A stretch of DNA of 40,197 bases from Roseburia sp. Lineage in GTDB: Bacteria > Bacillota > Clostridia > Lachnospirales > Lachnospiraceae. The translations under genes were made by a program, and so were the position numbers. The notes under the pieces are model-generated. The model ran no database searches. It saw only the letters and a list, made by a program, of their open reading frames with translations, and was not told the origin of the DNA. Each line of letters starts with the position of its first letter. Position 1 is the first letter of the stretch. The DNA is taken from positions 1 through 40,197 of the forward strand of contig JAMOZS010000022.1 in assembly GCA_023667765.1 (NCBI GenBank), in the 5' to 3' direction. Shown piece by piece: positions 11,848-23,190 of the stretch.

Positions 11848-12243
11848 ATGGCTAAAACGGATAAGTACTATGGAACCGGCAGAAGAAAGAAATCCATCGC
11901 AAGAGTATATTTAGTACCTGGTAAGGGCGATGTGGTGATTAATAAAAGAAGTATGGATGATTATTTTGGTCTTGAGACTTTAAAGGTAATTGTTCGCCAG
12001 CCTCTGGCAGCTACCGAGAATGTGGATAAGTTTGACGTTCTGGTAAATGTAAAGGGCGGCGGTTATACCGGTCAGGCAGGAGCTATCAGACATGGCATTG
12101 CAAGAGCTTTGCTCCAGGTGGATGCTGATTACAGACCTGTTTTAAAGAAGGCAGGTTACCTGACCAGAGACCCTCGTATGAAGGAAAGAAAGAAGTATGG
12201 CTTGAAGGCTGCAAGACGTGCGCCTCAGTTCTCAAAGAGATAA
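11848..12243 (+). CDS. rpsI: Ribosomal protein uS9
   Basis: This is the 131-aa small-subunit protein S9. It opens with [16 protein letters not shown], contains [19 protein letters not shown] and ends with the conserved [17 protein letters not shown] tail, whose last Arg reaches the P-site tRNA. The tail is intact even though the AT-rich island begins immediately after the stop codon, as when an element integrates at the end of a conserved gene and restores it. AGGAGG lies upstream of the ATG. Confidence 0.99.
12228..12237. other. Candidate attL core at the 3' end of rpsI
   Basis: GTTCTCAAAG, covering the last codons of rpsI, recurs exactly at 21744-21753, just past the island's right-end terminator. 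Ten bases is short for proof. The placement, at the end of a conserved ribosomal gene with an integrase stub next to it, is what an attachment site would look like. Confidence 0.35.
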
Positions 12244-12542: not shown

Positions 12543-12701
12543 CTAAATTCGATTAATTGTATTTATAAGTTCCTTAACATCAAAGTGGGTATATACTTTC
12601 TCGGTTAAAGTCATCGCACCAGAGTGTCCCGCAATCTTCTTAATAATCATTTGATTGACACGGCTTCCACTAACATGGAAATACATGTGTGCCTGCAATA
12701 A
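12543..12701 (-). pseudogene. C-terminal stub of a tyrosine recombinase (integrase)
   Basis: The minus strand encodes 52 residues ending at 12543-12545 and preceded by an in-frame stop at 12702-12704. The segment IIKKIAGHSGAMTLTEKVYTHFD contains the last two catalytic elements of a phage-type integrase, the His of GHSG and the Tyr nucleophile in KVYTH. Everything upstream (core Arg, Lys, Arg and the arm-binding domain) is missing. The gene pointed toward rpsI, the usual orientation next to an attachment site. It marks the left end of the restriction-modification island and shows that the element can no longer move by itself. Confidence 0.8.
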
Positions 12702-12707
12702 TTATCT

Positions 12708-13076
12708 ATGCGGGTAGCAGCTAAGCAGATGGATTATGAGGAAGCCGATGAATGGGTAAAAGAGGCAAATGAGCGAGCTGACAGAATCGAGGCTGATATC
12801 AAAACTCAAAGCGATACTCTGGTAGATTTGCAGGAGAAGGCAACGAAGCTGGAGAGAAAAGCAGAGATTGCGGAGATGGTTTACAATATGGCTAGAGGTT
12901 CTGGCGGCAATGAAACCTTAAGGGATAAGCTCATAGATGTTATGTACGAGAATCAACAACTGAAAGCGGAAAACTCTAAACTTCGGGAAACTCTGAATAA
13001 GGCTTACGATTTCATAAAACAGTTTGTGGTGGATGGAAAGAATCTGCGCGAGCGGTTTCTGGCGAGTATTGGGTAG
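12708..13076 (+). pseudogene. C-terminal fragment of a MobV (Pre/Mob) relaxase
   Basis: The 122 residues are mostly heptad-rich coiled coil (NERADRIEADIKTQSDTLVDLQEKATKLERKAEI), followed by MVYNMARGSGGNETLRDKLIDVMYENQQL and a FIKQFVVDGKNL tail, the signature end of clostridial MobV plasmid-mobilisation proteins (from memory). The N-terminal relaxase domain with its His motifs is absent. The fragment begins only 6 bp after the stop that bounds the integrase stub, so a deletion has fused the ends of two mobile-element genes. It has no ribosome site and is followed by its own terminator. Confidence 0.75.
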
Positions 13077-13118
13077 GTGGTTGAGAAGGTTAGAAGTGGT
13101 TTTGGAAGGTAGTTATGG

Positions 13119-13495: not shown

Positions 13496-16400
13496 ATGAG
13501 CATTGAAAGATTAAAGCAGTTGATAATGCAGTATAAAGAGAGTGTGAGTTATTATCATGATGCTAAAAATGCATATAATGAGACAGAATGTCGAGATGAA
13601 TACATTAGTCCGTTGTTGGAGTGTTTTGGTTGGGATGTACATAATAAAAGGGGTAAATTGCCTCAATACAAAGAGGTTGTAGTAGAAAAGTTTTCTAATA
13701 GCTCAGAAAGACCGGATTATACATTGACTTTAAATGGGGTGTCTAAGCTTTTTGTTGAAGCAAAGAAACCAAGTGTTGATATAACTATTGAGTTTGAGCC
13801 TGCAATGCAGACCAGAAAATATGGATGGAATGCTAATCATGCATTAGCAATATTGACCAACTTTGAAAATCTCCTGATTTATGATACAACGAACAAGCCA
13901 GAAGAAGGAGATAGTGCAAGTACTTCGTTGTATAGGAAATATAACTATGAAGACTATGTGGAAAAATATCAAGAAATTGCAGACTTGATTTCCAGAGATA
14001 ATGTGTATTCTGGACAATACGATGAATTCATTAAATCAAATTTTCAGAGTGATACCAGATATAGTACGGAGATTGATGAAATTTTTCTTAAACAAATTAA
14101 TAAATGGAGACTTGAAATTGGTAGTTATCTGTATGAAAATAAAGAAGACTATAGAAATATTAGTGTACTTAACGATACAGTACAAGATTTTATCAATCAA
14201 ATTATTTTTTTGAGAATCAGTGAAGATAGAAAATTGCCTTTATACATGAAATTATACGAAACTGTGGAAGATAGGGCATCCTTGCAGAAGGTATTAACTA
14301 TGGTTTTTAAGGAGGCAGATAAGCGATACAATTCAGGATTGTTCAAAAATGATAGACCGCTTTTTGATTTGAGTTGTGATATTATTTATGAGATGATAGA
14401 GTCATTGTATTATCCGAAGACACCATATATGTTTACGATTATTGAACCAAGTATCTTGGGAAAAATATACGAATCCTTTTTGGCTGAAAGTCTTGTGTTG
14501 CAAGATGGAAAAATTGCACTAGCGCAAAAGAAGGAATATTTGTATAAGTCAGTAGTAAGTACGCCGGTGGAAATAGTGAGATATATGGTGAAAAATACAC
14601 TAGAGCCATTATGTAAGGGAAGGACTCCTCAGGAAATTTTGAGTTTGAGAATTGCTGATATTGCATGTGGATCGGGTATCTTTCTAGAGGAAGCATATCA
14701 ATATCTGGTTGATTGCTGTACTGAGTGGTATAAGTTAAATGATAAAGAACATCTATTGGTGGTGGAAGATGGTATGGAGAAACTGCCTTTAGTTGACAAG
14801 AAAGAGATTTTGACAAATTGTATTTATGGTGTAGATATTGATATCCATGCAGTAGAAGTTAGTAAGTTTTCCTTATTATTGAAGTTAATTGAAAATGAAA
14901 CGGAACCATCTGTTATGAGCAGCAAACCTATATTACCAGAGTTGGAAGATAATATTAAATGCGGCAATTCTTTAGTGTCGGATGAAGATATTGAGGGATT
15001 AAATATTACATCGGAGGATTTAATAAATATAGACCCGTTTGATTGGCAGGAAATCAATGGTGGAGATAAGTTTGATGTAATTATTGGTAATCCGCCTTAT
15101 GTTAAGACGGAAGATATTAAAAAACTTCATACCAACGCAGAGGTCAAAATTTATAAGAAGTATGGAAGTTCTCATAAACAGTTTGATAAATATTATTTGT
15201 TTATTGAAAAGGCATTGGAATTGATTAATGAAAATGGTTTGATGTGTTATATTGTGCCAAATAAATTTCTACACACAGAATCTGCAGAGAAACTTCGACT
15301 TATGATTAAGGATAAGATTGTTAAACTTGACGATTTTGGCGCTGTTCAGTTATTTAAAGATAAGACAATATATAGTTCGATTCTTACAGTGGGTACAACC
15401 AATGCGGAAAAATTAGCATATAGGACAGTAGATAAGGTAGCACATTTGTGGAATGACGAGGTTGAACAATATAGTCTTATTCCTAAGAAAAGCTTGAATT
15501 GTATGCCATGGACTGAAAACTCGAATATTAATGATGATTCACCATGGCTAGTGTCAGATGACGATGTGTATTTGAGTATGATGAAAAATGCTAGAGTAAA
15601 AATAGTTTTTTTGGCTGATATTGTAGAGATATATAATGGAATTCAAACAAGTGCAGAGAAAGTATATAAGATTGAAGGTAAGACAATTGTATCAGAGGAT
15701 GAAAATTATGTGAAGTTCAGAGTTCAGGATAGGGAATATATGATTGAAAGGGGAGTTTTGAGATTATATTTTAAACCTACCAGAGCGGAACAAGGTGCAT
15801 TGGATACTTATAGTGATATTAATCAAGTTAAGGTTAATTACAATATTTTTCCATATGATGAAAATGGCAATTTTATCACTAAGGATATAATGGAAACACA
15901 ATATCCCCATGCGTGGGAATATTTATTAGAACATAAAGATATATTGTTGCCAAAATCATTAGGTGGAAATAGAGATGTGCAACCTATTGTTTCTGATAAA
16001 GACGAATGGTATCGATATGGAAGAAGTCAAGCGATTACAAGTCTTAATAATAGAGATAAAATAATTGTTGGAGTTAATCGTAAAAAGGATAATCCGTTGT
16101 ATCTTATGGATAAAACCCATTACTTAATTGCTTCCGGTGGAACAGCTGGTTATGTGGGAATATCTTTGAAAGAAGACAGTGAATATCAGCTAGAGTACAT
16201 ACATGCATGGTTATCACATCCATGGACAGACTGGTATTTACAATCAATTGGTAGTGATTTTGAAGGTGGCTTTATAGCAAGGGGAACATATACATTGCCA
16301 ATGGTTCCTTTTATCAAGCTGGATTTTGAGGATAAAAAGCAAAAGGAATTATACAACCAAGTCGTAGCTAATACAATACGAATTGGTGAATTAAACGAAG

Positions 16401-16513
16401 AATTGTTAAGTAAGAAGGATAGAGCGACACAGAATGTGTTAGAAAAGGAAAAGAGTAGGCTGATAAAGAAGAATGAGGAAATGATAACTAAAGTTTATCA
16501 GCAGAATTTTTAG
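13496..16513 (+). CDS. Eco57I-like type IIG restriction enzyme with fused N6-adenine methyltransferase
   Basis: This 1005-aa bifunctional enzyme should cleave and methylate DNA at one recognition site. Residues 1 to about 160 form a PD-(D/E)xK nuclease: ECRDEYISPLLECFGWD, then RPDY (72-75) and VEAKK with Glu88 and Lys90. A helical connector runs to about 370. The methyltransferase core has motif I IADIACGSGIF (386-396) and motif IV NPPY (532-535). Residues from about 700 form the TaqI-like target-recognition region. From memory, the classic Eco57I system has a 997-aa restriction-methylase and a 544-aa second methylase, which matches this gene and the next closely. The start has GGGGGAGG upstream. 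The gene is much more AT-rich than the core genome. The recognition sequence cannot be predicted by eye. Confidence 0.9.
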   Translation: MSIERLKQLIMQYKESVSYYHDAKNAYNETECRDEYISPLLECFGWDVHNKRGKLPQYKEVVVEKFSNSSERPDYTLTLNGVSKLFVEAKKPSVDITIEFEPAMQTRKYGWNANHALAILTNFENLLIYDTTNKPEEGDSASTSLYRKYNYEDYVEKYQEIADLISRDNVYSGQYDEFIKSNFQSDTRYSTEIDEIFLKQINKWRLEIGSYLYENKEDYRNISVLNDTVQDFINQIIFLRISEDRKLPLYMKLYETVEDRASLQKVLTMVFKEADKRYNSGLFKNDRPLFDLSCDIIYEMIESLYYPKTPYMFTIIEPSILGKIYESFLAESLVLQDGKIALAQKKEYLYKSVVSTPVEIVRYMVKNTLEPLCKGRTPQEILSLRIADIACGSGIFLEEAYQYLVDCCTEWYKLNDKEHLLVVEDGMEKLPLVDKKEILTNCIYGVDIDIHAVEVSKFSLLLKLIENETEPSVMSSKPILPELEDNIKCGNSLVSDEDIEGLNITSEDLINIDPFDWQEINGGDKFDVIIGNPPYVKTEDIKKLHTNAEVKIYKKYGSSHKQFDKYYLFIEKALELINENGLMCYIVPNKFLHTESAEKLRLMIKDKIVKLDDFGAVQLFKDKTIYSSILTVGTTNAEKLAYRTVDKVAHLWNDEVEQYSLIPKKSLNCMPWTENSNINDDSPWLVSDDDVYLSMMKNARVKIVFLADIVEIYNGIQTSAEKVYKIEGKTIVSEDENYVKFRVQDREYMIERGVLRLYFKPTRAEQGALDTYSDINQVKVNYNIFPYDENGNFITKDIMETQYPHAWEYLLEHKDILLPKSLGGNRDVQPIVSDKDEWYRYGRSQAITSLNNRDKIIVGVNRKKDNPLYLMDKTHYLIASGGTAGYVGISLKEDSEYQLEYIHAWLSHPWTDWYLQSIGSDFEGGFIARGTYTLPMVPFIKLDFEDKKQKELYNQVVANTIRIGELNEELLSKKDRATQNVLEKEKSRLIKKNEEMITKVYQQNF

Positions 16514-16521
16514 GTGATTAT

Positions 16522-18150
16522 ATGAAGTTAAAAGAAGATAGTTCAGTACAGAAGCTTAGAGGTGCTTATTATACCCCATTGCCATTAGCAGAGATGATGG
16601 TTAAGCTGTTTGCAAACAGAACAGATTGTAAGAATCTTCTGGAACCAAGCTGTGGAGATGGGGTGTTTTTTGATGCATTAATTAAAGCTGATTGTATTAA
16701 ACAGTATGTAAGTATAGATGCTGTTGAAATTGACGGAGTAGAGGCAAAAAAAGTAGAAGGAAGAATGAAATCCTATAAGAATATTAAAGTGATAAATGAG
16801 GATTTTTTCGACTTTTATAAAGCTAATCAGGAGTCTGTTCAATACGATTTGATATTAGGAAACCCTCCATATATCAGGTATCAATATTTGGAAGAACATC
16901 AGAGAGAGTTAATGTCTGATATATTGACATCTCAAGGAATGAAGGCAAATAAGCTCGTAAATACATGGGTTGGTTTTATTGTTTCTTGTGTAAATATGTT
17001 GAGCAACAATGGTAAAATAGCGTTTGTAATTCCGGCTGAAATCATGCAGGTTGCATATGCAGAAGATTTAAGACTTTTTTTGTCCAATAATCTTTCTAAA
17101 ATTACGCTTATTACATTTGAGGAACTTGTTTTTCCTGATATAGAACAGGAAATTGTCGTTTTTATTGGTGAAAAAGGTGATGAAAAAAAAGGTATTCGTA
17201 TTGTAGAATTGAATAACTTAGAGGATTTAAAGTCATTTGATATTAATGCTAATGGATTTCAAAAGTTACAACATGTATATGAAAAATGGACAAAGTACTT
17301 TACCAATGTTGAAGAAAATACCTTGGTTAAACAAATAAGAGAAGATAAGCGTTTTCAAAAGTTGTCGGATATTGCATTAATCAATGTTGGAATTACAACA
17401 GGTAATAATAAGTATTTTTCTGTGGAACGAAAAACTGTAGAAAAATATCAGATGCAAGATGTTGTAAGACCGTTAATTGGGAGAAGTTCTCATGCAAACA
17501 GCGTATATTTTAAACACGAGGACTGGATGCAGAATGTAATTAAAAATAAAGCGGCTTATTTAATTGATTTTCCGGATATTGAATATAAGCATTATCCTAA
17601 AAAACACAAGGAATATATTAAGATGGGTGAAAAGAATGGTGAGAATAAGGGCTATAAATGTTCTATCAGAGACAGATGGTATCGCATTCCGTCTATATGG
17701 GTGCCTGATGCATTCTTTTTACGCAGAAACAATTTGTATCCTAAATTTGTTTTGAATCAGTGTGAGGCAGTATCTACTGACACGATGCATAGAATCAAAT
17801 TTAATGAAGGTATTGAACCGGAGCGAGCTATTTTATCTTACTATAACAGTATTTCTTTTGCGTTTACTGAACTTTGTGGAAGAAGCTATGGTGGAGGCGT
17901 GTTAGAAATTCTCCCGGGTGAGGTGGGAAATATTTATGTACCTAAGTTAGATGTGGTTCCTCTTGAAGAAATACGAGGCCTGTTGGAGCAAATTGATTCA
18001 ATTGTAAGGAACAACCAAAATATTGAAGATGCACTGGATATAGTGGACAAGAAGATATTAGTAGATATTCTTGGCTTCGAGCAGAAAGTATGTGCAGATG
18101 CAAGGAGTATTTGGAAGAAGCTGCAGCGAAGACGATTGAATCGTGGATGA
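16522..18150 (+). CDS. Second Eco57I-type N6-adenine DNA methyltransferase
   Basis: This 542-aa stand-alone methyltransferase starts 8 bp after the restriction enzyme. Motif X-like RGAYYTPLPLAEMMV is followed by motif I LLEPSCGDGVF (residues 39-49) and the adenine motif GNPPY with Asn114 to Tyr117. The C-terminal half (about 270-520) is a target-recognition region, including RDRWYRIPSIWVPDAF and CGRSYGGGVLEILPGEV. There is no nuclease domain. In Eco57I the separate methylase protects both strands while the fused enzyme modifies one, so this is probably the protective partner. AGGTGA precedes the ATG. Confidence 0.9.
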   Translation: MKLKEDSSVQKLRGAYYTPLPLAEMMVKLFANRTDCKNLLEPSCGDGVFFDALIKADCIKQYVSIDAVEIDGVEAKKVEGRMKSYKNIKVINEDFFDFYKANQESVQYDLILGNPPYIRYQYLEEHQRELMSDILTSQGMKANKLVNTWVGFIVSCVNMLSNNGKIAFVIPAEIMQVAYAEDLRLFLSNNLSKITLITFEELVFPDIEQEIVVFIGEKGDEKKGIRIVELNNLEDLKSFDINANGFQKLQHVYEKWTKYFTNVEENTLVKQIREDKRFQKLSDIALINVGITTGNNKYFSVERKTVEKYQMQDVVRPLIGRSSHANSVYFKHEDWMQNVIKNKAAYLIDFPDIEYKHYPKKHKEYIKMGEKNGENKGYKCSIRDRWYRIPSIWVPDAFFLRRNNLYPKFVLNQCEAVSTDTMHRIKFNEGIEPERAILSYYNSISFAFTELCGRSYGGGVLEILPGEVGNIYVPKLDVVPLEEIRGLLEQIDSIVRNNQNIEDALDIVDKKILVDILGFEQKVCADARSIWKKLQRRRLNRG

Positions 18151-18229: not shown

Positions 18230-18781
18230 ATGCAAGAAATTATAAATGAATTAGATGCGGGCGATTATATATCTTTAGGTGCATGTTTAGTTTCTGTAAT
18301 TGCAGCAATAGCATCTATTGTCGCATGTGTAATTGCAAAGAAACAATTGGAATTGCAGGAAAAACAGTATGAAGATGGTGAACCGAATTTTAATATCAAG
18401 GTGCTAGATGCGATAATAAAGAAAGATAAAAAGATTAGTACTGTACAAGTATGGTTAAATATTCGTGTTGGTAATATATCCGACAAAGCCACTTCGATAA
18501 ATAATATTGCGTTGCGGCTTTTTTGCCTAGAAGATATTATATATAGACCATCTTTAAATAAAGATGTCCAAACAGATACAGGAATAACATATTTTTCGAT
18601 TGCACAGAATATAGGGGCACATTCCTCAGAAATGGGCTGGTGTATTTTTGATATACCAATTGATACCTATAACGATTTGCAAATAGAATATTCAGAATTG
18701 AATGTTGAAGATATTCATGGGCAAAAATGTGTTGAAAAAATTATATATATACAGGAAGAGTTGATAGATTATGGCATTTAA
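18230..18781 (+). CDS. Single-pass membrane protein of unknown function in the island operon
   Basis: I do not recognise this 183-aa protein. Residues 14-36 form one clear membrane helix (ISLGACLVSVIAAIASIVACV). A short charged helix follows (KKQLELQEKQYEDGEP), then a soluble domain that looks beta-rich (VQVWLNIRVGNISDKATSINNIALRLF). The topology is therefore an anchor with one soluble domain. The start at 18230 follows GGGAGG; the frame stays open to a TTG at 18203. It lies 79 bp after the methyltransferase and its stop overlaps the next start by 11 bp. It might be a membrane effector or receptor for the ATPase module. That is inference. Confidence 0.6.
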   Translation: MQEIINELDAGDYISLGACLVSVIAAIASIVACVIAKKQLELQEKQYEDGEPNFNIKVLDAIIKKDKKISTVQVWLNIRVGNISDKATSINNIALRLFCLEDIIYRPSLNKDVQTDTGITYFSIAQNIGAHSSEMGWCIFDIPIDTYNDLQIEYSELNVEDIHGQKCVEKIIYIQEELIDYGI

Positions 18782-19331
18782 TAGAAAGATGATTACTGTA
18801 AGTGAAAATGTTGTGAATATTGTTAATGATGCACTGGTATTACAACATGATTTTTGTGATGGGAAACCTATTCCGGCAATTGTAATTGACACATCAAATC
18901 ATAACAAGATAGAGAATATGTTAAAGTTGCATATGAATGTTAATGAGGGTGAGATGAAGTTTTCGTGGGGAATGACAACTGATAAGAGAAACATAATCCT
19001 ATTAGTTGAATCTATTTCGCCAATAGAATTAACATTTTCGATACTGTTTGAAATCGAAAAATATTATGCAGTTATAGATGAGATTTTGCGGTCACAGATG
19101 CTTATTATTCAAGGCGGAAAACCGGATGACAGGTTTTCATATAGTCTTAACTCAAATAAAATTGTTGTTGAGGTGCCTTTAACAGGATTTGAAGAAAAAT
19201 GGTATGATATTAGAAAGAAATATCAAAGGAAGCGTCTAAAGAAGATGGGCGTAAAGAATAAGGACATTAATAATGTTATGAACGATATTGACAAGGAGTG
19301 GGATGCTGTGATAAGAACCCATCTTAAATAG
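18771..19331 (+). CDS. Hypothetical protein, island operon
   Basis: This 186-aa soluble protein is not recognised. It looks alpha/beta, with alternating strands such as PIPAIVIDTSNHNKIENML and KRNIILLVESISPIELTFSILFEIEKYY, a later KIVVEVPLTGFEEKWYDIR, and a basic C-terminal helix (RKKYQRKRLKKMGVKNKD). No membrane segment or catalytic motif is evident. It overlaps the membrane-protein gene by 11 bp and is 36 bp ahead of the next gene, which implies coupled expression and perhaps a complex. Confidence 0.55.
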   Translation: MAFNRKMITVSENVVNIVNDALVLQHDFCDGKPIPAIVIDTSNHNKIENMLKLHMNVNEGEMKFSWGMTTDKRNIILLVESISPIELTFSILFEIEKYYAVIDEILRSQMLIIQGGKPDDRFSYSLNSNKIVVEVPLTGFEEKWYDIRKKYQRKRLKKMGVKNKDINNVMNDIDKEWDAVIRTHLK

Positions 19332-19367
19332 CAAAATTATTTGGAATAATAGGAGAGAAGTGGTTTT

Positions 19368-20129
19368 ATGGCAAAGAAAAAAGAGAAAGCTCCTCTATTT
19401 TTAAAAGTAATCTATTTTGATGAATCTACTGCACAAGATTATATTGATATTGTTAACGGCGGTAGGTTAGATTGGAGCAAAGAAGAAAATAAAGAGAAGA
19501 TTGCAAAAATATTAGCTGAGATAGAAGCAGAAGCGCAAGCTGGTTTTAATGTAATCAGTTTTATTAAGGCGATGATGTCAAGCAATGTGAATGCGAGTGC
19601 GTCAAATGATATATCTAGAGCGTTTGAAACGACGTTAAAGAACACGCTTTTGACTGATTATATTTCAGTTGCTTCAAAGGATAACAATGTTAAGAAATTT
19701 GTGAATAGTGGAGTATATGCTCCGGATAATTCTATTTCGTTGTATAGAATGTACAGTTCATATTTAACAATTGTTCCAGCAGAACAAATGCCTATTAACA
19801 TGGAAAAGCTTAATGAAGCATTGTTAGGAGAGAGAGGATACTACGAAATGCTTCTTACAAGTGAGACTGAACCTACATGCGTATTGCGTTTTAATGTAAA
19901 AGCATTTAAAAATAATTATAATTTGGCGGACTTATCGAAAATGCAGCTTACTTATTATGGAGTTAAGGTGGGAAGATGCACTAGAGAACAATTAAACATT
20001 GAAAAAGAATTTGAACACAAACCTAAAAAAGTTGTAATGTCAGCAGACAATATCATTGATGGAACGGTTTCAGAACAGAAGGATTTGGATGTATATGATA
20101 TAGTATTGGCAGGTGTAATGTGTGAATAA
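19368..20129 (+). CDS. Possibly DUF6414-like protein, island operon
   Basis: This 253-aa protein begins with a Lys-rich tail and VIYFDESTAQDYIDIVNGG, a pattern that reminds me of DUF6414-type proteins. A weakly hydrophobic, Ala/Gly/Asn-rich middle follows (AGFNVISFIKAMMSSNVNASASNDISRAFETTLKNTLL, about 63-100), which might insert into or lie on a membrane. The C-terminal half is a compact domain ending DVYDIVLAGVMCE. The family name is from memory and uncertain. Its TAA lies inside the first codons of the ATPase gene (8-bp overlap), so the two are translationally coupled and probably work as a pair. Confidence 0.5.
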   Translation: MAKKKEKAPLFLKVIYFDESTAQDYIDIVNGGRLDWSKEENKEKIAKILAEIEAEAQAGFNVISFIKAMMSSNVNASASNDISRAFETTLKNTLLTDYISVASKDNNVKKFVNSGVYAPDNSISLYRMYSSYLTIVPAEQMPINMEKLNEALLGERGYYEMLLTSETEPTCVLRFNVKAFKNNYNLADLSKMQLTYYGVKVGRCTREQLNIEKEFEHKPKKVVMSADNIIDGTVSEQKDLDVYDIVLAGVMCE

Positions 20130-21267
20130 GGTGGTTATTTTTTATGGCTCAAATCGGGCATTTATGGAAGTATTGCCTAAATCATATCGTAATCTGACAG
20201 ATGTTGTAATGGAGTTAGATAAAGAGAGCAAAAACATGATTTTGCATATACCTGAACTGAATGGACAAAAAAGTGAGCCTGTAGATAAAGAAGATAAGAA
20301 ACTGCAAGTAGAAAATTTTGTGATTAATTCTGATGAATATTGTGGAGTACGGGAACATGTGATAATTAATTTTGCTAATTTTATTGCAAAAATGGACATC
20401 ACTAATATGTATATACAGAACCCACCAAAGAGTATAAGCGAGCAACTGCATAGGATTTATGATACAAGTATATTGCAGATAATACAACAGAAATATAATT
20501 GTATTGATGAAGCCATAATAAGAAAATTCAACAAAGAATATGATGAAAGAATTATAGGGCAAACAAAAGTAAAAATAGAGGTTTTGCAAGCAATATATCC
20601 ATTGATTGATGGTAAGCAGAAAAAGCCAGTAATTATACTGTTTTATGGGGATTCGGGTTTGGGGAAAACCGAAACGGCACAGTATTTATCAGAATTGTTA
20701 AGTGGTAATTTATTTCGCAAGCAATTTTCTATGTATCAAAATAATGAATTTGCAACATATTTGTTTGGGGGAAATTATTATGAAGGCAGTTTTGCAAAAG
20801 ATCTTTTAGACAGAGATTCAAATATAATTTTGCTTGATGAGTTCGATAAGTCGAACCCTGTTTTTCGTAGTGCGTTTTATCAGCTATTTGATGAAGGAAT
20901 TTATGAGGAAAAAAATTACAAAGTAAATTTGGACAATGCGATAATTATATGTACATCAAATTATAAGGATGAAAGAGAAATTAAGGAAAATCTGGGTAAT
21001 GCAATATATAACCGATTTGACTCAATAATTCGCTTTGACGAATTGTCCGATGAATCGAAGGAGATTATAGCGAAAAATAATTTAGAAGATTTGGCAACAG
21101 ATTACCAAGAAGTACTAGACGGTATGGATGAAGAAATACGGTCGAGATTAATGAGTGCAGTAAAAGGATGTAGTAATGCTAGAGAGATAAGACGAATTAT
21201 TAAAGAAGTACTTAATTTGTTGGCTATTAGAAAAATGTGTGGAGATGAAGAGGTAGGAGGAGCCTAA
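20122..21267 (+). CDS. ClpB-D2-like AAA+ ATPase, island operon
   Basis: This 381-aa protein has a unique N-terminal region of about 160 aa and one AAA+ domain of the Clp/Hsp100 second-domain type. Walker A is GDSGLGKT (176-183), Walker B ILLDEFD (236-242) and sensor 1 TSN (278-280). The arginine finger is in NRFDSIIRF and sensor 2 in SNAREIRRIIKE. It lacks Clp N-domains, a middle domain and an obvious peptidase-docking loop, so it is not a housekeeping Clp. It starts at GTG with AGGTG 6 bp upstream and overlaps the previous gene by 8 bp. It could remodel or load the upstream proteins in response to phage. That function is inference. Confidence 0.8.
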   Translation: MNKVVIFYGSNRAFMEVLPKSYRNLTDVVMELDKESKNMILHIPELNGQKSEPVDKEDKKLQVENFVINSDEYCGVREHVIINFANFIAKMDITNMYIQNPPKSISEQLHRIYDTSILQIIQQKYNCIDEAIIRKFNKEYDERIIGQTKVKIEVLQAIYPLIDGKQKKPVIILFYGDSGLGKTETAQYLSELLSGNLFRKQFSMYQNNEFATYLFGGNYYEGSFAKDLLDRDSNIILLDEFDKSNPVFRSAFYQLFDEGIYEEKNYKVNLDNAIIICTSNYKDEREIKENLGNAIYNRFDSIIRFDELSDESKEIIAKNNLEDLATDYQEVLDGMDEEIRSRLMSAVKGCSNAREIRRIIKEVLNLLAIRKMCGDEEVGGA

Positions 21268-21504
21268 CTAACTCCCCCATAGCCTCTACATACCCTTGTA
21301 ACCCACCTTCTATGGAAGCCAATTTGGCATAAAGTACCGGTTTCTCTCTAGCAAGCCTTGTAAGATACGCAATATCAGAAGGTTCCTCCAGACGATTGGA
21401 AGCATTGCATTTTGGCAGTCAAAAGAGACATGGAATTCATCGTTGAGGTTGACCTCGACACAATCGGTTTCAGAATTATACATTGCTAAAATTATCTTAA
21501 TCAT
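21227..21504 (-). pseudogene. Frameshifted small mobile-element protein (DUF6061-like)
   Basis: A minus-strand gene starts at 21504 with a good AAGGAG site and reads MIKIILAMYNSETDCVEVNL, then FDCQNA. Near 21400-21412 the frame breaks. The plausible continuation, NRLEEPSDIAYLTRLAR then LYAKLASIEGGLQGYVEA, is in another frame and runs to a stop at 21227, overlapping the 3' end of the ATPase gene. The joined product resembles small DUF6061-type proteins of clostridial mobile elements (from memory). It is convergent with the operon and marks the right side of the island. Confidence 0.55.
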
Positions 21505-21692
21505 AAGTGGCTCCTTTCGAGAGGTGATATAAGTTTAAGTGTAAGAGCATAGTTGTCGTGGGATGTCCTGAGCAGCTCTCCGAATAAAACACATATGCAA
21601 CACTTGATGTAAGGAATCCCTTATATTCGGGCTTTTCAAGCTCTCGAAACATTAACGAAGAGATAATTTTACAACCATTTCAAAAAGAGTTC

Positions 21693-21739
21693 AAAGCCCC
21701 CGAAAGTCCGGCGGAAACCCACTTGTTTTCGGGGGCTTT
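21693..21739. terminator. Strong hairpin at the right end of the island
   Basis: AAAGCCCCCGAAA (21693-21705) and TTTCGGGGGCTTT (21727-21739) form a perfect 13-bp stem. Runs of A and T on either side could let it act in both directions. It lies just inside the candidate right attachment site. The remaining sequence 21505-21692 contains a CCGAATA...TATTCGG inverted repeat near 21577-21637 and no gene I can support. Confidence 0.75.
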
Positions 21740-21753: not shown

Positions 21754-21936
21754 TGTGCAATCATTTTACATTTGTGTATTTTTGATATAAAAATTCATAT
21801 CCCCATGTGACATATGCGAGCTGCCGGGAAAAAAGATATACTTCAACCGGAAGTTGAATTTGGTGCATAAACTCTCTTGCGCGGTTATTGCATAGCAGGC
21901 GGCAGGCAGGTTATGATAAAAGCGGAGGTGGCGGAC

Positions 21937-23190
21937 ATGCTTGATGGTATTAAGGTTGGAAGTTTTATAATGAATAAACGTAAAGAACTGGGAATGACGC
22001 AGCAGCAGCTGGCCGACAAACTGAAGGTTTCTTTTCAGGCAGTTTCAAAGTGGGAAACAGGAACGACATATCCCAATATTGAAATTCTGAGGGATTTGGC
22101 CGTTGCGCTGGATGTAACGGCGGATGAGATTTTGGCAGGCAGCGAAAGGGATGCCGAAGAACTGTCCTACAGTAAAGCCGGGATTGATATAGCATACACG
22201 GATAATATAAAAAAGGAAATATCGAAGCATATCGAAACAGGTGATAAACGTGTTTTAAACGGATTAGGGCCGTTTGCGTCCCTGTATGACATAGATTTCC
22301 CAGAGCTTAAGGAGCCGGTGCTGGTCTTGAAGGCAGAGGAGCCGGGCTCGAAGCAGAAGCTTGCGATGGAATACGGCTATACGGAATCCATTTGTCATGA
22401 CATGATTAATCATTTGGTGAATGATATAGCGGTTATGGGAGCAAAGCCGCTGGCGGTATTGGATACTATTGTATGCGGAAGCGCGGAGAAGGATACGATT
22501 AAAAGTCTGGTGAAAGGCGCGGCGGAAGCCTGCAGGGAAAATGACTGCTCCCTGGTTGGCGGCGAAACCTCTATTCAGCCTTTGGTGGTTGAGCCGGGCG
22601 TATATGTGTTGACCTCCAGCATTGCGGGTATTGTAGAAAAGAGCAAGGTAATTGACGGTTCCGCAGTAGAAGAGGGAGACGCCGTTCTGGCCATAGCCTC
22701 AAATGGCCTGCATACAAACGGTTATTCCCTGATACGCCTGTTAATGGACAGAATGCCTCAGATAAAATTAGATAAAATAGACGGTCTTACTTTTATTGAA
22801 CAGATTATGAAACCCCATGCTCCCTATTACAAAGCTATTAAGGACTTGTTCGGAAAAGAGGTAATACATGGAATGGCACATATTACCGGGGGCGGAATAG
22901 AGGGGAATCTATGCAGAGTGATACCGGACGGATACTGTGCGAAGATTGATTTATCAAAGCTGCGGGTGTTAAAGCTTTTCAAATATATTCGTGATTGCGG
23001 AAATATCAGCGATGAAGAAATGCTACACACATTTAATTGCGGCGTGGGCTTTAATCTTATTGTTCCGCAGAAGCACAAAGATATGGTGATAAAGCATGTT
23101 CAGAGGTATTATGACTGTTATGAGATAGGCTTCATAGAAAAAGGCAATCATAAGGTAGCGTTTGAAAAGGGAATCAACTGGTTGCTGTAG
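21937..23190 (+). CDS. XRE-type HTH domain fused to a PurM-like AIR synthase
   Basis: This 417-aa two-part protein has an N-terminal lambda-repressor-type HTH at residues 7-68 (MNKRKELGMTQQQLADKL, VSFQAVSKWETGTTYPN), joined to a full-length PurM-like domain. The latter opens with SYSKAGIDI and includes ICHDMINHLVNDIAVMGAKP, the GGET motif in SLVGGETSIQP, SNGLHTNGYSLIR, HGMAHITGGGIEGN and HTFNCGVGFNLIVP. PurM closes the imidazole ring of FGAM to AIR in purine synthesis. Here it may be a ligand-sensing domain of a regulator or a catalytic paralogue. GGAGG 8 bp upstream sets the start at 21937, although the frame opens earlier. No purine genes are adjacent. Confidence 0.85.
   Translation: MLDGIKVGSFIMNKRKELGMTQQQLADKLKVSFQAVSKWETGTTYPNIEILRDLAVALDVTADEILAGSERDAEELSYSKAGIDIAYTDNIKKEISKHIETGDKRVLNGLGPFASLYDIDFPELKEPVLVLKAEEPGSKQKLAMEYGYTESICHDMINHLVNDIAVMGAKPLAVLDTIVCGSAEKDTIKSLVKGAAEACRENDCSLVGGETSIQPLVVEPGVYVLTSSIAGIVEKSKVIDGSAVEEGDAVLAIASNGLHTNGYSLIRLLMDRMPQIKLDKIDGLTFIEQIMKPHAPYYKAIKDLFGKEVIHGMAHITGGGIEGNLCRVIPDGYCAKIDLSKLRVLKLFKYIRDCGNISDEEMLHTFNCGVGFNLIVPQKHKDMVIKHVQRYYDCYEIGFIEKGNHKVAFEKGINWLL

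Follow-up and report, generated by a model that had tools for sequence, protein, structure and literature searches.

A Dodola gene pair and a separate candidate defence cassette in tandem beside restriction-modification genes of Roseburia

Dodola and the gene pair upstream of it

The phage-defence system Dodola, with its genes dolA and dolB, is said to have been described originally by Millman et al. in 2022, and it is the described system closest to part of a four-gene stretch in the window analysed here, that is, the whole 40,197 nucleotides (positions 1 to 40,197) taken from contig JAMOZS010000022.1 of Roseburia sp. The excerpted part of one paper (PMC11514479) credits Dodola with action against SPP1 in Bacillus subtilis. 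The excerpted parts of a 2025 paper (PMC12322248) report broad protection by Dodola relatives against the streptococcal phages tested, failure of Dodola from one plasmid vector and slowed growth upon chromosomal insertion, and list its mechanism as unknown in Table 1. The second point of comparison is the moron cassettes of P2-like phages, whose gpA-gpQ region is, in the excerpt of Rousset et al. (PMC9122126), a hotspot for defence where old/tin and a system of a TIR protein and a membrane protein are found.

In the window, four open reading frames (ORFs) lie on the forward strand in the order g1 (readable from 18203, with its ATG at 18230; 18230..18781, 183 amino acids), g2 (18771..19331, 186 amino acids), dolA (19368..20129, 253 amino acids) and dolB (20122..21267, 381 amino acids), spaced by an 11-nt overlap, a 36-nt gap and an 8-nt overlap. 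The ORF list thus agrees with the layout given in the original prediction, which had been made from the letters alone. The ATG at 18230 is preceded by GGAGG, a good ribosome-binding sequence, and the length of 183 amino acids is therefore likely for the first gene. Directly upstream stands an Eco57I-like restriction-modification (RM) pair, as predicted, with matches to the PADLOC models PDLC03604 and PDLC03267.

The downstream half of the stretch is almost certainly a Dodola system, to judge from its model matches. The 253-amino-acid protein matches DolA (PADLOC PDLC03837, 247.2 bits, 6.7e-74) and Pfam PF19952 (DUF6414; 119.2 bits, 3.8e-34, cut-off 25), and the 381-amino-acid ATPase matches DolB (PADLOC PDLC03838, 423.7 bits, 1.8e-127) over residues 1-373, which includes the N-terminal 160 residues that had been called unfamiliar. 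Both proteins fit their models nearly full length, in the usual gene order and with an 8-nt overlap, and no difference from Dodola is seen in dolAB itself; upstream of it are an unrelated gene pair and the type IIG-like RM genes. The composition that had been taken as unrecognised is therefore catalogued as far as dolA and dolB are concerned, and g1-g2 is still unrecognised. Kyte-Doolittle hydropathy maxima of DolA and DolB are at most 1.06. DolA has no sequence relative among solved structures (limit E 0.1), and no paper on DUF6414 was found in the open-licence literature.

The original prediction had joined the four genes into one module, and the places where each pair occurs elsewhere speak against this. 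The dolB genome loci are the best 80 of 103 DolB relatives, to which six viral loci were added, three of them weak AAA+ matches. A whole or partial dolA adjoins dolB in 78 of the 80 genome loci and in three of the six viral ones, and the DolA alignment holds 78 sequences; of the two genome exceptions, one dolB starts at contig base 28 and the other was matched only from residue 93. Neither g1 nor g2 is present in any of the 80 genome and six viral loci. When profiles of g1 and g2 were run against the 14,425 stop-to-stop ORFs of 83 dolB loci and eight further loci, they matched only the loci from which the profiles were made, a sister contig (L115) and one g2 remnant, and hence none of the 83 dolB loci, a single g1 match at E 0.043 being noise. 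In the other direction, neither the eight g1-g2 contig stretches (of 4.3 to 16.6 kb) nor that from Rhizobium gave any match to dolA and dolB profiles, and DUF6414 is present in none of five whole records that carry g1-g2, including a 512-kb plasmid. Because the dolB loci lack g1-g2 and the g1-g2 stretches and records lack dolA and dolB, we dropped the single four-gene module; the sequence comparisons make g1-g2 very probably a unit of its own, which neighbours dolAB by chance here. Two findings had been named beforehand as counting against the module, a match to a catalogued system and no co-occurrence of the four genes elsewhere, and both were made, the latter within the loci and records searched. 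The proposal that the ATPase loads g1 as a membrane effector is likewise not supported, since g1 and dolB are found apart. What does hold up is the broader expectation of a phage-defence locus with an AAA+ ATPase beside RM genes, which the Dodola and RM model matches bear out in appearance.

Taken as a whole, the locus reads somewhat better as two independent defence units in tandem, carried as cargo of a decayed mobile element, than as anything else. Unit 1 (18230-19331) would be an uncatalogued two-gene cassette in which a single N-terminal helix anchors g1, with its cytosolic domain, in the membrane and g2 is probably its soluble partner; unit 2 (19368-21267) would be Dodola, with dolA and dolB. 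The RM genes and both units would form one cargo block (~13.1-21.27 kb), carried beside rpsI by a mobilisable element of the Mob_Pre type that has decayed. Half of this finding is already catalogued, namely Dodola; what remains of interest is the unlisted g1-g2 pair, the loss of a pore loop in DolB and the difference in cargo beside rpsI.

Occurrence and features of the g1-g2 pair

Elsewhere, the g1-g2 pair occurs on 2 Rhizobium plasmids and 8 IMG/VR contigs, where the g2 relatives beside g1 are 30-33% identical. On the Rhizobium plasmid the g1 homologue overlaps g2 by 20 nt, and in the IMG/VR contigs read the two genes overlap or lie 0-1 nt apart. Successive g2 profiles, made from ever better alignments, returned 0, 3, 5, 8 and 8 contigs of IMG/VR, and a scan with g1 alone returned the same 8 contigs (L109, L112-L114 and L131-L137 are further cuts of these). 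On the Rhizobium plasmid, genes annotated as an ABC-three component system, a kind of system linked to conflict, lie at a distance of ~5 kb from g1-g2. A PIN-domain gene stands after g2 on this plasmid and at no other place read, and it was rejected as a member of the unit.

The IMG/VR copies sit among phage genes. In L103, L105 and L107 the pair lies between baseplate-assembly and tail-completion genes in P2-type DNA, and in L104, L110 and L111 between a late tail gene (PHROG 52) and an integrase, with an Ogr-type gene also in L110; L115 shares the integrase side with these three. The term P2-like is a reading from matches and gene order in the five contigs with scanned flanks, while L105, L111 and L115 are known from ORF lists alone. 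In L108 the pair is found beyond a gpA-like C-terminus, with a weakly TIR-like gene and a small protein as neighbours; this copy may lie in the gpA-gpQ region, although the next phage gene is an integrase and not gpQ. As with the moron cassettes of P2-like phages (old/tin, and the AC1 TIR and membrane-protein system), of which several have membrane proteins according to the excerpt of PMC9122126, g1-g2 is thus a small prophage cassette. It differs from them in that the hotspot described in that excerpt is gpA-gpQ, whereas seven of the eight contigs carry g1-g2 elsewhere, and in that the copies scanned have no PHROGs or PADLOC model. As a separate observation, in L108 (986-2220) the weakly TIR-like gene (E 0.031, below cut-off) overlaps the small gene, and both belong to PHROGs of no assigned function; the two together resemble the TIR/membrane-protein system of phage AC1.

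The g1 protein of the window has one N-terminal hydrophobic segment, with a mean hydropathy of 2.78 over 19 residues, as expected for the one-span membrane protein of the original prediction. The segment scores 2.0-2.8 across copies and is weaker (1.37) in L104. Lys or Arg follows within at most 2 residues in 6 of 7 sequences, and by the positive-inside rule the remainder of g1, a predicted C-terminal domain, is thus probably cytosolic. The weakly hydrophobic middle noted earlier for g2 is real in the window copy, where it reaches 1.88 and counts against a soluble protein, but the most hydrophobic stretch in six homologues reaches only 1.19-1.48. Since the homologues score lower and the middle contains an invariant P and E, we read g2 as probably soluble and its middle as not a second span. 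Residues invariant in the seven g2 rows include, in the numbering of L110, D18, G29, I32-P33, G58, W64, E85, K96, a Q-x-G-x-P-x-D loop, K129, V132-E133, P135 and W143, and by eye no PD-(D/E)XK pattern stands out among them. Ratios of nonsynonymous to synonymous substitution rates (dN/dS) among the prophage copies are 0.09-0.14 for g1 (5 of 21 pairs) and 0-0.29 for g2 (10 of 21 pairs), computed only from pairs with unsaturated synonymous sites, the remaining pairs yielding no ratio. Both genes are under purifying selection among these copies.

Profile libraries add little to this. In PADLOC, NCBIfam and PHROGs the window copies of g1 and g2 have no match of meaningful score, and neither the window nor the Rhizobium copies match a family of PADLOC 2.0 at E up to 1, in a scan that left out the prophage copies and a library without systems described after 2023. 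The one family above cut-off is PF11611 (DUF4352; 27.5 bits against a cut-off of 25.9) for the g1 of the window; this assignment is doubtful, as 0 of 5 homologues scanned (L098, L103, L104, L108, L110) match, and no paper linking DUF4352 with phage and defense was found in the open-licence literature. Two further candidates were too weak to use, the likeness of one prophage g2 to the CDI-toxin (contact-dependent inhibition) nuclease-like family PF21111 (E 0.085) and that of one prophage g1 to phrog_8682, a short PHROG of unknown function (E 0.0048, 34 residues). Neither g1 nor g2 has sequence relatives among solved structures (limit E 1 each).

On the strength of the company it keeps and of its moron positions, we consider it likely that g1-g2 is a phage-defence or exclusion pair, and most likely an uncatalogued, membrane-associated pair acting by phage exclusion or abortive infection. 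It would be made in lysogens and in hosts and would exclude infecting phages, with g2 sensing the infection or carrying an enzymatic step and g1 acting at the membrane. This division of labour, by analogy a membrane effector and a sensor or enzyme, is a tentative assignment. The rival account closest to it takes g1-g2 for a lysogenic-conversion or maintenance pair, concerned with the surface, with stress or with a toxin-antitoxin-like function, that merely shares the cargo with RM and Dodola. Many functions occur at prophage moron positions, no defence model matches the pair, and two small overlapping genes would suit a toxin-antitoxin pair too; yet the window copy stands between an RM pair and Dodola, which is company typical of defence genes, the copy in L108 is beside the TIR-like gene mentioned above (a match below cut-off), and a g2 remnant in another genome of the phylum (G822) lies beside restriction-type genes. 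This account is unlikely, but it is the only rival with appreciable weight.

Two other accounts would join the genes of the window into larger systems. In the first, g1 and g2 would be accessory effectors used by DolAB, so that all four genes make up an extended Dodola; they share a strand, g2 and dolA are 36 nt apart and no terminator-like site was found between them. The absence of g1 and g2 from all 83 dolB loci, of dolA and dolB from the eight g1-g2 stretches and of DUF6414 from the five whole records makes this very improbable, and other dolAB loci have RM and other genes in the upstream position. Slightly harder still to credit is one composite, BREX-like system of the RM genes with everything downstream. 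It has on its side that six genes lie on one strand, with gaps of 8 (between the two RM genes), 79 (RM to g1) and 36 nt (g2 to dolA), and stand where a relative has another cargo. However, the nearest upstream neighbours of dolA (n=65) include, among the families listed, 7 with a match to a type IIG, 5 to a type I and 4 to a type III restriction model as well as 3 to BrxL; these neighbours are nearest upstream ORFs of at least 180 amino acids within 1500 nt, for 78 loci with dolA and 71 with such a neighbour at any distance, and the counts cover 25 of 164 families, may share members and come without a control set. RM beside Dodola recurs, but it is one option among many. Neither RM gene of the window has a relative below E 0.05 in the g1-g2 stretches.

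Several observations weigh against our preferred reading of two defence units. The g1 of the window directly matches only L104 (E 5e-9) and L098 (5e-5), and the g1 of the other IMG/VR contigs was reached via these two. Since the profiles used for scanning derive from the very contigs that they return, these scans are better evidence against orphan relatives than proof of linkage. Beyond its own genome, g2 turned up in none of 396 genomes from the family, in 1 of 397 from the phylum and in none of 390 from the class (partly overlapping sets), and the sole match, a truncated copy in G822 with a stop inside the gene, has a DNA methylase and a ResIII-type restriction gene next to it; g2 is in 0 of 50,697 phage records (searched with three g2 queries, g1 not being searched there), and a DNA search with two prophage copies found it in 0 of 5,426 E. 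coli genomes. Co-occurrence of g1 and g2 is thus known from a single Bacillota genome, a single lineage of Rhizobium plasmids and a single cluster of related prophages. Morons can serve ends other than defence, and g2 matches no Pfam family and shows no recognised fold or catalytic motif. As to unit 2, one study found Dodola, among other systems, to have minimal effect on the phages it tested, according to the excerpt of PMC11514479. Being small, carried by prophages and absent from the profile libraries searched save for the doubtful DUF4352 match, g1-g2 is a cheap candidate for cloning.

DolB compared with the Clp ATPases

DolB was predicted to be an ATPase of the ClpB second-domain type, and it does match TIGR02639 (ClpA second AAA+ domain) at 1.9e-19. 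Against the Torsin model (PF06309) it scores 29.3 bits, the cut-off being 27, but AAA_2 is higher at 51.2. DolB can be aligned to the second AAA+ domain of the HSP100 proteins ClpA and ClpB of E. coli, and the alignment examined holds 82 of 84 DolB sequences, two of less than 300 amino acids being left out. The AAA+ catalytic residues G176, K182 and T183, D239 and E240, N280 and R298 are kept in 82 of 82 sequences, and R354 is kept in all 81 with a residue at that position. DolB therefore shares Walker A and B, sensor 1, the Arg finger and sensor 2 with HSP100 (81-82 of 82 sequences).

The elements by which Clp proteins handle substrates and ClpP are a different matter. The substrate-threading pore loop GYVG is found in none of the 82 sequences; between the columns that flank it there are 9 residues in 80 DolB sequences and 7 in two, compared with 15 in both ClpA and ClpB, so that DolB lacks six residues of pore loop 1 that include GYVG; it also has an N-terminal domain of its own. 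Likewise, no [IL]G[FLI] motif is present between sensor 1 and the Arg finger, where the ClpP-docking loop would lie, in any of the 82 sequences, and the segment that holds this loop in ClpA is shorter in DolB, with 13 residues from N280 to G292 throughout. The lack of GYVG across the alignment speaks against DolB being an unfoldase that threads its substrate. At the place of the Clp pore loop 7-9 residues do remain as a loop, with His or Tyr fourth in 78 of 80 sequences, and this counts against the non-threading reading. On balance it seems likely, from the alignment, that DolB does not thread protein, and the label ClpB-like is not to be taken as unfoldase. DolB may instead be an ATP-driven switch that remodels or holds DolA, with DolA sensing infection or executing the response. 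Loss of the pore loop throughout the 82 aligned sequences makes the mechanism of Dodola accessible to a direct test. The wider proposition, that g1-g2 is a new autonomous two-gene anti-phage system of Bacillota, Alphaproteobacteria and P2-like prophages and that Dodola is driven by a non-threading, ATP-gated Clp relative, is in our estimate evenly balanced.

Other dolA and dolB loci carry further genes in close company. In five dolAB loci an ORF of 866-872 amino acids begins 4 nt inside the end of dolB, and in four others an ORF of 603-620 amino acids does so, the latter having the look of an OLD-type ATPase by eye. Loci of Marinilactibacillus, Atopostipes and Jeotgalibaca have a conserved hydrophobic ORF of 73 amino acids 54 nt upstream of dolA. 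In the genome of the window itself, contig C54 encodes a second DUF6414 protein (L101, 6791-7657), which lies near a reverse transcriptase gene (RVT_1 8.5e-14), a short ORF whose start is of AAA type and a small gene resembling helix-turn-helix genes; the ORF list showed no recognisable dolB.

The carrier element beside rpsI

A relative of the same genus, G1511, has after rplM-rpsI an integrase, a helix-turn-helix gene, a Mob_Pre gene, a cargo, a DUF6061-like edge and a second integrase. Traces of the same element frame the cargo of the window. Past rpsI (11848-12243) lies what remains of a tyrosine integrase gene at its 3' end (12553..12697, reverse strand), with 88% DNA identity to G1511 (L152 3471-3616), where the integrase ORF downstream of rpsI matches Phage_integrase at 7.2e-22. 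The left cargo edge is a remnant of a Mob_Pre C-terminus (12702..13099, forward strand; ORF 12708-13076, 122 amino acids) with 85% DNA identity to G1511, whose 400-amino-acid Mob ORF has a match to Mob_Pre (PF01076) at 2.1e-15; the ORF in the window yields nothing beyond weak coiled-coil matches. The right cargo edge (21270..21709) has 79% DNA identity to the right edge of the different G1511 cargo and includes a short DUF6061-like ORF on the reverse strand (21310-21504; 0.0022, below cut-off).

The two genomes thus share their edges, but the window has RM, g1-g2 and dolAB in between. About 2.8 kb is absent from the window copy, and with it the regulator, the N-terminal part of Mob and the greater part of the integrase, so that this copy of the element is probably immobile by itself. 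An exchangeable cargo slot is suggested by one comparison, that with G1511; among 101 genomes of the genus, matches to the left edge beyond G1511 and the genome of the window are at most 113 bases long. Apart from one 11-nt match, a search of 12.4-22.5 kb turned up no repeat of the 3' end of rpsI. The different cargo in the relative makes the place beside rpsI one in which to seek further defence systems in the genus. That cargo (L140 6423-13532) is likewise RM-like and encodes an N6/N4 methyltransferase, an Eco57I-like protein of 923 amino acids and proteins of 618 and 533 amino acids, the last two without a Pfam family at E 0.01.

Within the block, the first RM gene (13496..16513, forward strand) encodes a type IIG-like restriction enzyme-methyltransferase of 1005 amino acids (PDLC03604 5.5e-250; PF07669 Eco57I 9e-39; HSDR_N 2.7e-9), and the second (16522..18150, forward strand) an Eco57I-type DNA methyltransferase of 542 amino acids (PDLC03267, type II, 5e-181; PF22837 M_Eco57I_C 4.4e-38). 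The block is AT-rich, with a fraction of guanine and cytosine of 0.32-0.34 in 2-kb windows compared with 0.37-0.55 outside. Promoter-like sites show no excess (42, against a shuffle mean of 43.6), so no promoter is claimed, and the repeats in the block, among those listed, are short and chance-like. Finally, an ORF just past the island (21877-23190) fuses HTH_3 (3.3e-16) to an AIR-synthase-type enzyme (AIRS 1.8e-16, AIRS_C 8.7e-20), and several genomes of the same genus have DNA relatives of it, at 70-73% over most of the part searched.

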